In this document: piece by piece, positions 58,626-63,686 of the stretch
Layout: every line of letters starts with the position of its first letter
How positions within the stretch are numbered: position 1 is the stretch's first letter
Origin: a virus
Length of the DNA stretch: 64,000 bases
IMG/VR virus record: IMGVR_UViG_3300027708_000022
Span: 1-64,000 of that record
Direction: 5' to 3' (one strand)
Made by a program: the position numbers and the translations under genes
The notes under the pieces: model-generated
Seen by the model: the letters and a program-made list of their open reading frames with translations, nothing else
The model's database searches: none
Told to the model about the DNA's origin: nothing

Positions 58626-59360
58626 ATGGCTTTACCAAAAATTGATGTACCTATTTTTGATGTGAAATTATTTTCTACAAACAAAAAAGTAAAATTTAGA
58701 CCATTCACCGTTAAAGAAGAAAAACTATTTCTCATAGCTTCAGAAACGGATGACCCACAATCAACTATAACAACAATCAAGCAGGTTTTGAATAATTGTA
58801 TACTTGATGATACTGATATTGAATCTCTTCCTTTGTTTGATATTGAGATGTTGTTTTTAAATTTAAGAGCTCGCTCAATCAGTGAGATTGTTAGTTTAAA
58901 ATACAAGTGTAATAACAATATTGTCGAAGAAGATGGTAAAGAACACAAATGTAACAATCAAGTAGAGATTGATGTTAATGTTTTGGATATTGTACCTGAA
59001 GTTGGTGAAAACCATTCTAATAAAATTGAAATTAATAGTAAACTTGGCCTTGTTATGAAATATCCAAAAATGGATGTTATGGCAAATATGGACAAGCAAG
59101 AAAATATTGATTCAGTTTTAAATTTGATTGTTGGTTGTATTGATTACATTTATGATGATGAAAAACTTTACTATGCTAAAGATAGTACAACAGAAGAATT
59201 GGTTGACTTTTTAGAAACATTACAATCAAAGGATTTGGAAAATATCAAACAATTTTTTGATACTATGCCAAAGATGAAAAAGACTTTAGATTTTAGTTGC
59301 AGAAAATGTGGTTATCAAGAAAAGATTGATGTAGAAGGCATACAAAATTTTTTCGGTTAA
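58626..59360 (+). CDS. 26: gp26 baseplate hub / tail assembly chaperone-like protein
   Basis: 244 residues of the T4 gp26 (T4_baseplate) family, needed for hub assembly. Seen: LPKIDVPIFDVKLFSTNKKVKFRPFTVKEEKLFLIASE at the start, FNLRARSIS-type core (FLNLRARSISEIVSLKYKC) and four cysteines (C95, C109, C225, C228) forming a likely zinc ribbon. GGAG lies 6 bases before the ATG. The last codons CAA AAT TTT TTC GGT TAA contain overlapping slippery heptamers (59345-59354), and the -1 frame is open for 64 more codons with a gp51-like sequence, so a longer 307-residue frameshift product is predicted. Confidence 0.85.
   Translation: MALPKIDVPIFDVKLFSTNKKVKFRPFTVKEEKLFLIASETDDPQSTITTIKQVLNNCILDDTDIESLPLFDIEMLFLNLRARSISEIVSLKYKCNNNIVEEDGKEHKCNNQVEIDVNVLDIVPEVGENHSNKIEINSKLGLVMKYPKMDVMANMDKQENIDSVLNLIVGCIDYIYDDEKLYYAKDSTTEELVDFLETLQSKDLENIKQFFDTMPKMKKTLDFSCRKCGYQEKIDVEGIQNFFG
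59345..59354 (+). promoter_or_regulatory. Slippery site for -1 ribosomal frameshifting
   Basis: AAATTTTTTC contains A-AAT-TTT (59345-59351) and T-TTT-TTC (59348-59354) in the gp26 frame, both fitting X-XXY-YYZ, two codons before the gp26 stop. An internal AGAAGG lies about 6 bases upstream, placed like the stimulatory Shine-Dalgarno of dnaX. Only a weak 5-bp hairpin is visible downstream. Confidence 0.75.
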
Positions 59361-59548
59361 TATTTCGTTATGATAATCTTGAGAATCATTATAAAACAAA
59401 TTTTGCTCTGATGCAACATCACAAGTACAGTTTGACAGAGTTGGAGAATATGATTCCTTGGGAAAAAGATATCTATGTGAATATGCTAATACGATATCTT
59501 GAAGAAGAAAATGAGAAGATTAAAGCTGCTAACCAACAAAGAAGATAA
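59354..59548 (+). CDS. 51: gp51-like domain, read by -1 frameshift from gp26
   Basis: Open frame of 64 codons with no usable start: RLIFRYDNLENHYKTNFALM, QHHKYSLTELENMIPWEKDI, YVNMLIRYLEEENEKIKAAN, QQRR. The YDNLENHYKTNF...HHKYSLTELENMIPWEKDIYVNML pattern is the small protein annotated as gp51 next to gp26 in aquatic T4-like phages. The only in-frame ATG codons are internal and lack a ribosome-binding site. Expected product: gp26 residues 1-243 plus these 64, analogous to lambda gpGT. The next gene (tail-lumen protein) begins 3 bases after the stop, the usual place of a chaperone pair before a tape measure. Confidence 0.78.
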   Translation, partial: RLIFRYDNLENHYKTNFALMQHHKYSLTELENMIPWEKDIYVNMLIRYLEEENEKIKAANQQRR

Positions 59549-59551
59549 TAA

Positions 59552-61717
59552 ATGGCAATAGACCGTACACCAGAAGAACAGGAAGAATATAATAAGCTTA
59601 AAAAAGATATTATAAAAGATATCAAAAAAGAAGCTAGAAAAAAAGATTATAATTCTTCAAATAAAAACACAACAAGCAATTCACTTACTGATATTGTAAA
59701 ATCTCGTCGTGAAGCTGGTGAAGGTGTCTTTGGTTCTTTAGGTGGAGCAGCTAAAGAGCGATTGAAGGAGAAGCTGGATATCAGAAGAGCTCTGCCTCAA
59801 GGTGGATTATTAACGGCTTTATTTCCAATATTAAAGGCATATAAAGCACAACTTCTCAATCCAATATCAAATGAAGGTTCCGCTTATTCCACTAGTACAA
59901 TGAGTCCTGCTCCTTCTAGTGGCGATTCTTTAGCCACATCAAAACCACTATTTGATTCTATAAGTGTTAATACAAAAATTATAGCAAAAAATAGTATGGC
60001 CTTGCCTTTGATTCAAAAAGATACTAATCTTATGCGTCAGACTTTAAAGAAGATTGTTAAGGCGATGCAAGCTAGAAAAAAAGTTGTTCCAACTAATACT
60101 ATTCCAACTTTAACAAAAAGAGTAAATAAAGTTGATGAATATAAAGGATTGGAAACAGAAAAAGAACAACCAAAAAAAGAAAAAGGTCCACTTGACATAT
60201 TAAAAGATTTGGCTGAATCAATTTATTCGATGATTAAAGTTGTTACTAAAACCATAGAAGAAGCTTTAAACGGTTTAACTGATAAAATTATTAAAGGTGT
60301 TGTTTCAGGAATAAAGGGTCTTTTCACTGTAGGTAAATTAGCAACATCAATGCTTGGTAGATTTATGATGCCTATCTTAGGTTTCATGGCTAGTCCAGCT
60401 GGTTTAGCACTGATGCTTGGCGCTGCCTTTTTTGCAGTCCTCTATAGGGGTTTTACTTCTGAAGAACGTGATGCTGAAAAAAGAAAAGAATTTGAGGAAT
60501 TGAAATCCAAAATTGCTTCAGGAACAGCATCTCAGGCAGATAAAAGAAGATATAAAGAATTGGAAGGATATGGTTATGGAAAAGAAGATATTGAAATACC
60601 CGACAAAGTTCTAAATCCATTTTATGGAAATAAACAATCTGGTCGTGTATCCTATGGAACATTTGGAACATTACAACAAATATTAGCACAGAAAAAAGGA
60701 ACTATAGAATACCTTTCTGATGAAGAATTGAAAAAGGGTGAATTTGGAAATTCTAGAGAAGTATTACAGAAATGGATGGACCATTATTTGGAATGGGAAA
60801 AAACTGATAAAAAAGGCAAGATTAAAAGTTTAAGTGAAATAGATGCAGATTTAATTCGTCCACAAACAGATAAAAACATAGAAGCTTCTGGAGTTTCTCC
60901 TGAAAAAATAGCTAATGAATTTGGAACAACATCGACAGCCCCCAATATAATTCATAAGAATCCTTTGGATCAAAAGGCACAAACATTGGCTGTTGGTGAT
61001 AGTTTAGCTGTTGGACTAAACAGGAGTGGATTGTCTGGAGATGGAGTTGATGCTGTTGGTGGTATGGATCCAACAAGAGTTTTAAATAAAATAAAAGAGA
61101 ATCTACAATCTGACCCATATCGCTATAAAGGTAAACACGTTATATTGAGTTCTGGTATTTCAAATGCTTACGGAACACTAGATCCAACAAGTGGACCAAA
61201 GAATACATCGTCCAAAAAACCAGCTGTAATGGAGAAAGAAAGATCCACAATAGCTGAACAAATAAAATTGTTGGAGGCTAATGGTGCAACAGTTTCATTA
61301 CTAGGTGTTGGTCCTCATCCTGTTTACAGAAATAATAATGTCAACGAAGAATTAAAATCATTAGCCAATTCAAACAATATTAAATTTTTAAATTTTCGTG
61401 AAGATGATTTTAATTCTAGGAAAGATTTAATACATCCTTCAACATATGGAAAACTAGTTGAAGTATCAAAAACATCAACAGAATCTATGTTGAATCCTAA
61501 AATTGATCCAAAATCTATAACTAGTATTAGTTCTTATGATTATGAAGGCACGGCTATTGCAGAAGATCGGTTACTAGGTCAATCTCTAAATTCAACATTA
61601 GATACTCCAAATTCTAATAAACAATCAACACCTAGAGCAGCAATAGAATCGCCATTTAATTATAAAAATCCGCAATTCGCTTCTTTGGGTCCTATAACTT
61701 TAATATCATTTACATAA
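59552..61717 (+). CDS. Tail-lumen / tape-measure-like protein with SGNH hydrolase domain
   Basis: 721 residues. Residues 43-99 are a block duplicated in the next gene (NSLTDIVKSRREAGEGVFGS...LPQGGLLTALFP). Residues about 265-305 are hydrophobic (RFMMPILGFMASPAGLALMLGAAFFAVLY), a possible membrane-insertion segment. Residues about 478-640 form an SGNH/GDSL hydrolase: VGDSLAVG (Ser484), a GG block-II glycine, SSGISN (Asn538) and DLIHPS (Asp625/His628). Such domains act as peptidoglycan O-acetyl esterases or other esterases; the substrate here is inferred. Position after gp26/gp51 is that of a tape measure (T4 gp29), so it is probably held in the tail and released on infection. Confidence 0.75.
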   Translation: MAIDRTPEEQEEYNKLKKDIIKDIKKEARKKDYNSSNKNTTSNSLTDIVKSRREAGEGVFGSLGGAAKERLKEKLDIRRALPQGGLLTALFPILKAYKAQLLNPISNEGSAYSTSTMSPAPSSGDSLATSKPLFDSISVNTKIIAKNSMALPLIQKDTNLMRQTLKKIVKAMQARKKVVPTNTIPTLTKRVNKVDEYKGLETEKEQPKKEKGPLDILKDLAESIYSMIKVVTKTIEEALNGLTDKIIKGVVSGIKGLFTVGKLATSMLGRFMMPILGFMASPAGLALMLGAAFFAVLYRGFTSEERDAEKRKEFEELKSKIASGTASQADKRRYKELEGYGYGKEDIEIPDKVLNPFYGNKQSGRVSYGTFGTLQQILAQKKGTIEYLSDEELKKGEFGNSREVLQKWMDHYLEWEKTDKKGKIKSLSEIDADLIRPQTDKNIEASGVSPEKIANEFGTTSTAPNIIHKNPLDQKAQTLAVGDSLAVGLNRSGLSGDGVDAVGGMDPTRVLNKIKENLQSDPYRYKGKHVILSSGISNAYGTLDPTSGPKNTSSKKPAVMEKERSTIAEQIKLLEANGATVSLLGVGPHPVYRNNNVNEELKSLANSNNIKFLNFREDDFNSRKDLIHPSTYGKLVEVSKTSTESMLNPKIDPKSITSISSYDYEGTAIAEDRLLGQSLNSTLDTPNSNKQSTPRAAIESPFNYKNPQFASLGPITLISFT
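59678..59850 (+). repeat. Duplicated 173-bp segment, copy 1
   Basis: Aligns without gaps to 61728-61900 in the next gene; about 4 mismatches in the first 80 bases, more after. Encodes residues 43-99. Confidence 0.8.
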
Positions 61718-61718
61718 T

Positions 61719-63686
61719 ATGGAAAATAATTCACTTACTGATATTGTTAAATCTCGCCGTGAAGCTGGTGAAGGTGTCTTTGGTTCTTTAGCTGGAGCAG
61801 CTAAAGAACGCCTGAAAGAAAGAATGGATTGGAAAAGACTTTTACCTCAAGGTGGTTTGTTAACTGCTTTATTTCCAAAACTCAAGGCATACAAAGCTCA
61901 GAAAGCTGCATCTCCAACAGAAAAAGTTTTAAAGAATATTGATACCGATTTTGCTTTATTTGCAAAGAACAGTAAAAAATTGGAATCCATTGCAAATAAT
62001 TTTTTGTTAATGAAAAGAGAAGTTAATAAACTTGCTAAATTGGAAAAAGTATCTCCTGCGACTAATGTGGACAGATCATTGGATGCGGAAACAGGAACAA
62101 CAGATACTACACAACCATCTAAAATTGAAACTGAAAAAGGTGGATTTAATATTTTATTGTTAATTGCTGCTGTTGCCGCTGTTGCAACAGCTGTAACGGT
62201 GGGATATGAAAATTTAAAAGAGTCATTTGATTCCACTATATCAGAATCTTTGAAACCACTTTTACATTTTGGTTCAGATTTATTTGAAGAATTTGAAAAT
62301 ATATTTGATTGGACAGAATTAAGAATGTCTGATTTATCCGACCTTGCAGAAGATACAATGGATTTTTTCAAAGAAAATCTTTCTAAATTATTTAATATGG
62401 ATGTTTTAGGTAAAATTAAAGATATTGCCAACAATGTTATCTCTAAATTTTTAGGAACGGATAGTGGTGGTGATAATGTAAAAACTCAAATTTATGATCC
62501 TGAAGCTGAGAGAAATGCTGGAGAAGCAGAAGCTCAACATTATATGCGTGATAGGGAGTCAGCATTAGTAGCTGCTCAAAATGATCCAAATACCAAAACA
62601 CGAAAGAAAAGATCAAGTAAAATTTTGGATATGGAGGGATTATTATCTGGTGAAAATGCTCTAGGTAATGTTATAGCTTCAGGTGAAAGTCGTGGAGCTG
62701 GATACAATGCGTACAATAAAGGAACTATAGGAAATAAAATAATTGGTTCGGATAAAAAAATAGATTTTTCTAGTATGACACTTGATGAATATTTTAGAAG
62801 ATCCGAATTGCCATCTAATGATCCTGATAAGTTATTTGCTGTTGGAAAATATCAAATAATTCCAGATACGATGAAAGGTATTGTTAAAGCTTTAGGGGTT
62901 GATACAAAAACAACACAGTTAACACCTGATGTACAAGAATCTTTTTTTAAATATCTTGTTAGTAATAGAAGAAATTTGAACGCATATCTCAAAGGTAAAT
63001 CTGATGACTTAAATGGAGCTATTCTTGACCTTGCTAAAGAATGGGCAGCTGTCGGTGTTCCATATGATAATCCAGACGGGAAACAATTAAAAAGGGGACA
63101 ATCATATTATTCCGGAACAGGTGGTAATGCGGCTAGTCTTTCACCTGAAATCATTGGTCAAGCTTTAGTTAAACAGAGAAGTGATAATTTAACTTCACCG
63201 ACAACAGCATCAGCAAAAACACCATTACCAACTGCATCAGTAACACCAACAACAGTACCAACAACAACATTATCAAAAACACCATTACCAACTGCATCAG
63301 TAACACCAACAACAGTACCAACAACAACATCATCGAACATCACCAACAATACCAATACCAACAACATTACAGCACCAACAACAACGAACATCACCAACAA
63401 TACCAATACCAACAACATTACAGCACCAACAACAACGAACATCACCAACAATACCAATACCAACAACATTACAGCACAAGATATAACTTCGATAAAAACA
63501 GCATCTATATCTCCGAATGTTATTGGTAGTAAACCTAATAACCAAAAAACGGTGTATATTCCTGTTCCTATTTCCTCCGGATCTGGTGGAAACAATCAAG
63601 ATAATGTAACAAATTCAAGAAACAAATTAAAAGAGGATTATGTTGCACGATTAATGTGGAACAATCTTGTTAATAATCTCGGATAA
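61719..63686 (+). CDS. Tail-lumen protein with muramidase-like domain
   Basis: 655 residues, paralogue of the preceding gene at its N-terminus (residues 4-60). A hydrophobic segment ILLLIAAVAAVATAVTVGY lies near residues 145-165. Residues about 310-475 resemble a lysozyme-like (muramidase/transglycosylase) domain: NVIASGESRGAGYNAYNKG with candidate catalytic Glu323, MTLDEYFRRSELPSNDPDKLFAVGKYQIIPDTMKGIVKALGV and AKEWAAVGVPYDN. The C-terminus has Thr/Asn-rich tandem repeats (unit NITNNTNTNNITAPTTT) and ends in a short helix. With the gp5 spike lacking lysozyme, this is the best candidate for local wall digestion. It starts one base after the upstream stop. Confidence 0.75.
   Translation: MENNSLTDIVKSRREAGEGVFGSLAGAAKERLKERMDWKRLLPQGGLLTALFPKLKAYKAQKAASPTEKVLKNIDTDFALFAKNSKKLESIANNFLLMKREVNKLAKLEKVSPATNVDRSLDAETGTTDTTQPSKIETEKGGFNILLLIAAVAAVATAVTVGYENLKESFDSTISESLKPLLHFGSDLFEEFENIFDWTELRMSDLSDLAEDTMDFFKENLSKLFNMDVLGKIKDIANNVISKFLGTDSGGDNVKTQIYDPEAERNAGEAEAQHYMRDRESALVAAQNDPNTKTRKKRSSKILDMEGLLSGENALGNVIASGESRGAGYNAYNKGTIGNKIIGSDKKIDFSSMTLDEYFRRSELPSNDPDKLFAVGKYQIIPDTMKGIVKALGVDTKTTQLTPDVQESFFKYLVSNRRNLNAYLKGKSDDLNGAILDLAKEWAAVGVPYDNPDGKQLKRGQSYYSGTGGNAASLSPEIIGQALVKQRSDNLTSPTTASAKTPLPTASVTPTTVPTTTLSKTPLPTASVTPTTVPTTTSSNITNNTNTNNITAPTTTNITNNTNTNNITAPTTTNITNNTNTNNITAQDITSIKTASISPNVIGSKPNNQKTVYIPVPISSGSGGNNQDNVTNSRNKLKEDYVARLMWNNLVNNLG
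61728..61900 (+). repeat. Duplicated 173-bp segment, copy 2
   Basis: Partner of 59678-59850; encodes residues 4-60 of the muramidase-like protein. Confidence 0.8.
63214..63330 (+). repeat. 60-bp in-frame tandem repeat
   Basis: About two copies of a 60-base unit; 63241-63270 and 63301-63330 are identical, as are 63214-63240 and 63274-63300. It encodes KTPLPTASVTPTTVPTTT-type 20-residue units. Confidence 0.9.
63335..63477 (+). repeat. 51-bp in-frame tandem repeat
   Basis: About 2.8 copies with period 51 (unit starts at 63335, 63386 and 63437), encoding the 17-residue unit NITNNTNTNNITAPTTT. Copies are identical where they overlap, so the array is recent or kept uniform. Confidence 0.92.

Follow-up and report, generated by a model that had tools for sequence, protein, structure and literature searches.

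Comparative sequence evidence for a probable -1 frameshift at the gp26/gp51 boundary of an uncultivated T4-like virus

The window analysed here, a 64,000-nucleotide part of a 162,042-base IMG/VR virus record, contains a locus that very probably encodes a tail assembly chaperone (TAC) in two forms, a short TAC-N and a long TAC-NC of the lambda G/GT type, the latter made by a -1 slip on the heptamer T_TTT_TTC at the end of a gp26-like gene. Support comes from the anatomy of the locus, from a heptamer and a -1 frame that are both conserved, from the lack of a near start codon in the window's clade, and from T4 gp51, which is homologous to the fusion. The N-terminal part matches PF12322 and the tail matches phrog_634 (E-values in Table I), placing the locus in the T4 gp26/gp51 family.

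In the gp26 frame, positions 59343-59360 read CAA AAT TTT TTC GGT TAA, exactly as an earlier note on this sequence had claimed. Both slippery heptamers to which that note drew attention, A_AAT_TTT and T_TTT_TTC, are present in the correct phase for a -1 slip. The -1 frame is open from 59330, immediately after a TGA, to the TAA at 59546-59548, and a slip must therefore fall between 59330 and the gp26 stop. Slipping on T_TTT_TTC is predicted to join 243 residues of gp26 to 64 residues of the -1 frame, and the sequence thus agrees with the proposed entry into a 64-codon frame to give a fusion of 307 residues. The statement that this frame has no start codon of its own is true of its beginning, but the first ATG, GTG or TTG encountered, an ATG at 59411, 53 bases past the beginning of the gp26 stop, lies within the conserved domain. 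The whole virus record contains a single gp26-like gene, which means that, as far as the record shows, the long form could come only from this locus.

Table I. Coordinates of features at the gp26/gp51 locus and evidence for their assignment
Feature	Position	Strand	Evidence
gp26-like gene (predicted TAC-N, short form), 244 aa	58626..59360	+	Pfam PF12322 T4_baseplate, E 6.5e-60; phrog_150 baseplate hub, 8.2e-67
SD-like AGAAGG, possible stimulator	59333..59338	+	ends 9 nt before heptamer T_TTT_TTC; SD-like core in 160/163 loci
Second heptamer A_AAT_TTT, probably incidental	59345..59351	+	in 33/163 loci
Slippery heptamer T_TTT_TTC, the conserved one	59348..59354	+	T_TTT_TT[C/T] in 163/163 related loci, TTTTTTC in 160
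-1 frame tail domain (predicted TAC-C; "gp51" in cyanophage annotation), 64 codons + TAA	59354..59548	+	phrog_634 baseplate hub assembly catalyst, E 1.2e-27
gp26 stop codon TAA	59358..59360	+	sequence
First ATG in -1 frame, inside conserved domain; would yield 45-aa fragment	59411..59413	+	sequence
Downstream gene (721 aa), possibly a tape-measure or tail protein	59552..61717	+	no PHROG match; weak GDSL-like match, residues 489-633

The AlphaFold model of gp26 (pLDDT 87) matches structures predicted for hub chaperones from other phages. A fold search of this model against the PDB returned no significant match (HK97 tail assembly chaperone 2ob9 at E 3.5), and a sequence search for relatives of gp26 with solved structures gave none that were meaningful. 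A Cys pair near the end of gp26 (CRKCG; gene 58626-59357) is zinc ribbon-like, with a weak Pfam zinc-ribbon match (E 0.17).

Conservation was assessed in a set of 163 loci, of either the window type or the P-SSM2 type, drawn from IMG/VR and phage records. These loci have a common ancestry, and their counts are therefore not independent. All 163 carry T_TTT_TT[C/T] no more than three codons from the gp26 stop, 160 of them as TTTTTTC exactly, and clustering at 80% gp26 identity yielded 45 representatives, every one with the heptamer. The second heptamer noted earlier, A_AAT_TTT, is found in only 33 loci and looks incidental. Every one of the 156 loci not cut by a contig end has a -1 frame of 45 or more open codons across the site, and both other frames contain stops in all 153 loci with a complete tail. 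The stop count for the -1 tail itself is zero by construction; only the open length (45 codons or more) tests the frame independently. Judged from these sequences, the arrangement of heptamer and open -1 frame is far beyond chance, and the comparison strongly supports the proposal of a programmed -1 frameshift generating a G/GT-like pair from gp26 and gp51.

The codon preceding the two Phe codons is AGT (112 loci), AAT (41), TCT (5), GCT (2), GGT (1), or GAT (1); the encoded residue changes and the third-position T is constant. The second Phe codon is TTC in 159/163 loci, and elsewhere in gp26 of the representatives TTC accounts for 100 of 516 Phe codons (19%). A variable residue with a constant T, together with this unusual use of TTC, suggests that selection acts on the nucleotides of the heptamer themselves. 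A naive calculation puts the probability of this codon pattern at approximately 10^-36; it ignores common descent and is not taken as evidence of scale.

The AGAAGG site suggested as a stimulator is present upstream of the heptamer, but it owes its sequence mostly to a conserved Glu-Gly in gp26, the codons of which contain the SD-like cores found across the loci (Table I). JS98 keeps this Glu-Gly without a frameshift. It is possible that the site acts as a stimulator, and this role is regarded as putative. No stable RNA structure was found in the 100 nt downstream (z +1.38), none stood out in the 161 nt around the site (z +0.24), and an Rfam search for a stimulatory RNA gave no match.

The junction heptamer T_TTT_TT[C/T] also occurs in Schizotequatrovirus R10Z, Ceceduovirus P19, Menderavirus YB07, Emdodecavirus phiN3, and Nitratidesulfovibrio phage SRB7757. 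A search for the heptamer at the gp26/gp51 boundary, the check recommended in the earlier note, is thus positive in all related loci and in distant groups, but negative in T4, JS98, AB2I3, and the Ackermannviridae. In T4, JS98, and AB2I3, gene 26 is followed by gene 25, with no -1 tail. Both T4 and JS98 keep the two Phe codons, as TTC TTT rather than TTT TTC.

Gene 51 of T4-type phages is separate and divergent from gene 26. JS98 gp51 matches PF12322 over residues 1-201 (7.5e-57), and a profile of the -1 tails hits residues 200-244 of T4 gp51 (4e-7) as well as JS98 gp51 (8e-8), the best of 500 shuffled control sequences scoring 0.16. Comparison of a full-length profile of the predicted fusions with the gp51 family aligned 231 columns with a probability of 97.7%. 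Since a gp26-like part is followed by the same tail from approximately residue 200, T4 gp51 is, on this homology, the in-frame equivalent of the predicted fusion, joined at the shift point.

A separate gp51 is annotated in the public records of P-SSM2, P-SSM4, phiN3, and R10Z, and an ATG overlaps the gp26 stop (TAATG/TGATG) in some groups (R10Z, YB07, phiN3, VAP7, K452), in keeping with gp51 being an independent small gene that is translated from its own start, either by reinitiation after the gp26 stop or through a non-standard start codon. We consider this improbable. Of 30 representatives of the window's clade, 26 lack any ATG, GTG, or TTG between -13 and +30 relative to the gp26 stop, making an independent gp51 gene unlikely there, and in the window itself the first ATG of the -1 frame already lies within the conserved domain; over all loci, a near start codon is lacking in 63 of 156. 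An independent gene is further opposed by the onset of the conserved tail residues at the shift point, by the retention of the heptamer with its unusual codon choice, and by the covalent fusion of the tail to a gp26-like part in T4 gp51. P-SSM2-like loci often have an ATG a few bases past the gp26 stop, which may explain why gp51 is listed separately in many records. In the S-RSM4 record, g51 is annotated from the ATG equivalent to position 59411 of the window. Public cyanophage records (L091, 1965-2099; L001, 3183-3356) begin gp51 at internal codons, and such starts leave the annotated proteins without the first conserved tail residues.

Slippage of RNA polymerase, rather than of the ribosome, could add an extra T within the correctly placed run of six and would make the same protein. 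Six Ts are, however, short for efficient polymerase slippage, and the run nearly always closes in TTC, in a codon phase that fits a ribosomal heptamer. A longer run was possible through the commoner Phe codon TTT, yet TTC is used, and we give polymerase slippage very little credence. A sequencing or assembly error, or decay by loss of one base from a single gp26-gp51 gene of the kind that T4-type gp51 represents, has next to no probability and is ruled out by the comparison, since finished isolate genomes, like all 156 untruncated loci, show the same -1 arrangement.

If the locus encodes a two-form chaperone by ribosomal frameshifting, most ribosomes would read gp26 through to its TAA and produce TAC-N (244 aa). 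On T_TTT_TTC a minority would move back by one base, with both tRNA-Phe pairing anew on TTT TTT, and would then bypass the gp26 stop and add 64 residues to produce TAC-NC (307 aa). We infer both the slip and its frequency from conservation, and the binding partners are likewise putative. The lambda gpG/gpGT pair suggests their roles by analogy: coating of the tape measure or hub protein would fall to the N part and recruitment of tail tube subunits to the C domain, and neither TAC-N nor TAC-NC would remain in the virion.

The Ackermannviridae and similar viruses (L005, L099, L100, L115; L094, L095) possess a -1 gp51-like tail and no X_XXY_YYZ heptamer. A TAATG overlap is found at the junction in phiDP23.1, VAP7, and K452. 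Kutterviruses have neither the heptamer nor a near start codon, their junction reading GA[A/G] ATT TTC ATT TAA. One may speculate, with considerable doubt, that the Ackermannviridae relatives would make the long form through a frameshift signal of a not-yet-described type. If so, one gene family would extend from canonical slipping, via non-canonical slipping or reinitiation, to the split genes of T4.

Upstream of gp26 are head closure, DNA end protector, and tail tube-like genes, in an order that matches phiN3 and R10Z; the gene directly upstream is the tail tube-like one (phrog_45, 1.3e-34). Downstream, the gene described earlier as tape-measure-like does start three bases past the fused stop, with its ATG at 59552, but this 721-aa gene has no tape-measure family match and shows just a weak GDSL-like domain. 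A search for a homolog of T4 gp29, the tape measure, gave no match in the virus record, which may be incomplete. The tandem genes at 59552-63686, of 721 and 655 aa, have an N-terminal module in common (44% identity over 179 columns, E 1e-29), beyond which they differ, the 721-aa protein being GDSL-like and the 655-aa protein endolysin-like.

The earlier note knew of no such frameshift for the T4 gp26/gp51 pair. According to PMC10885494 and PMC12846349, however, the TAC genes of T4-like phages were identified by Vladimirov, Gautam and Davidson (Virology 2022, 566:9-15). Citing that work, PMC10885494 describes T4-like phages in which a short TAC gene is accompanied by a long, fused one, and PMC12846349 describes poly-T frameshift signals in the TAC-N genes of some T4-like phages. 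To the extent that these accounts convey the 2022 study, the finding in the note is a correct rediscovery, in a new virus, of a general idea already published. On the same accounts, the window's locus resembles the T4-like TAC-N/TAC-NC in its predicted short and long chaperone forms and in the poly-T signal present in some of them, and differs in belonging to an uncultivated virus of a clade that the 2022 study may not have covered.

Three consequences would follow from the two-form reading. A large group of uncultivated T4-like viruses would join the phages with G/GT-type recoding, a mechanism that a 2016 review (PMC5009743) held to be widely conserved in long-tailed phages "except T4". In many cyanophage records, the short gp51 gene is probably a mis-annotated fragment of the fusion. 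Support is also given to the view of T4 gp51, which in 2010 was listed as essential to the hub but without a known function, as the in-frame long form of a tail chaperone.

T4 itself has a gp26 homologous to the window's short form and a gp51 whose homology to the fused long form covers almost the entire protein, but these are two separate, divergent genes with no heptamer and no need of a frameshift. At the TAC locus of Pakpunavirus Adele and the Andersonviridae (PMC12846349), all genomes examined have a conserved slippery site, there GTTTTT, and an open -1 frame. A conserved slippery site and an open -1 frame are also seen in the window's relatives, although Adele and the Andersonviridae belong to phage families other than that of the window virus. 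The lambda G/GT system (PMC5009743) likewise has two overlapping frames in the tail region, with a -1 frameshift close to the end of the first and a minor long form as the result; it differs in that the window virus is a contractile-tailed T4-like virus with another slippery heptamer and a putative tape measure partner.
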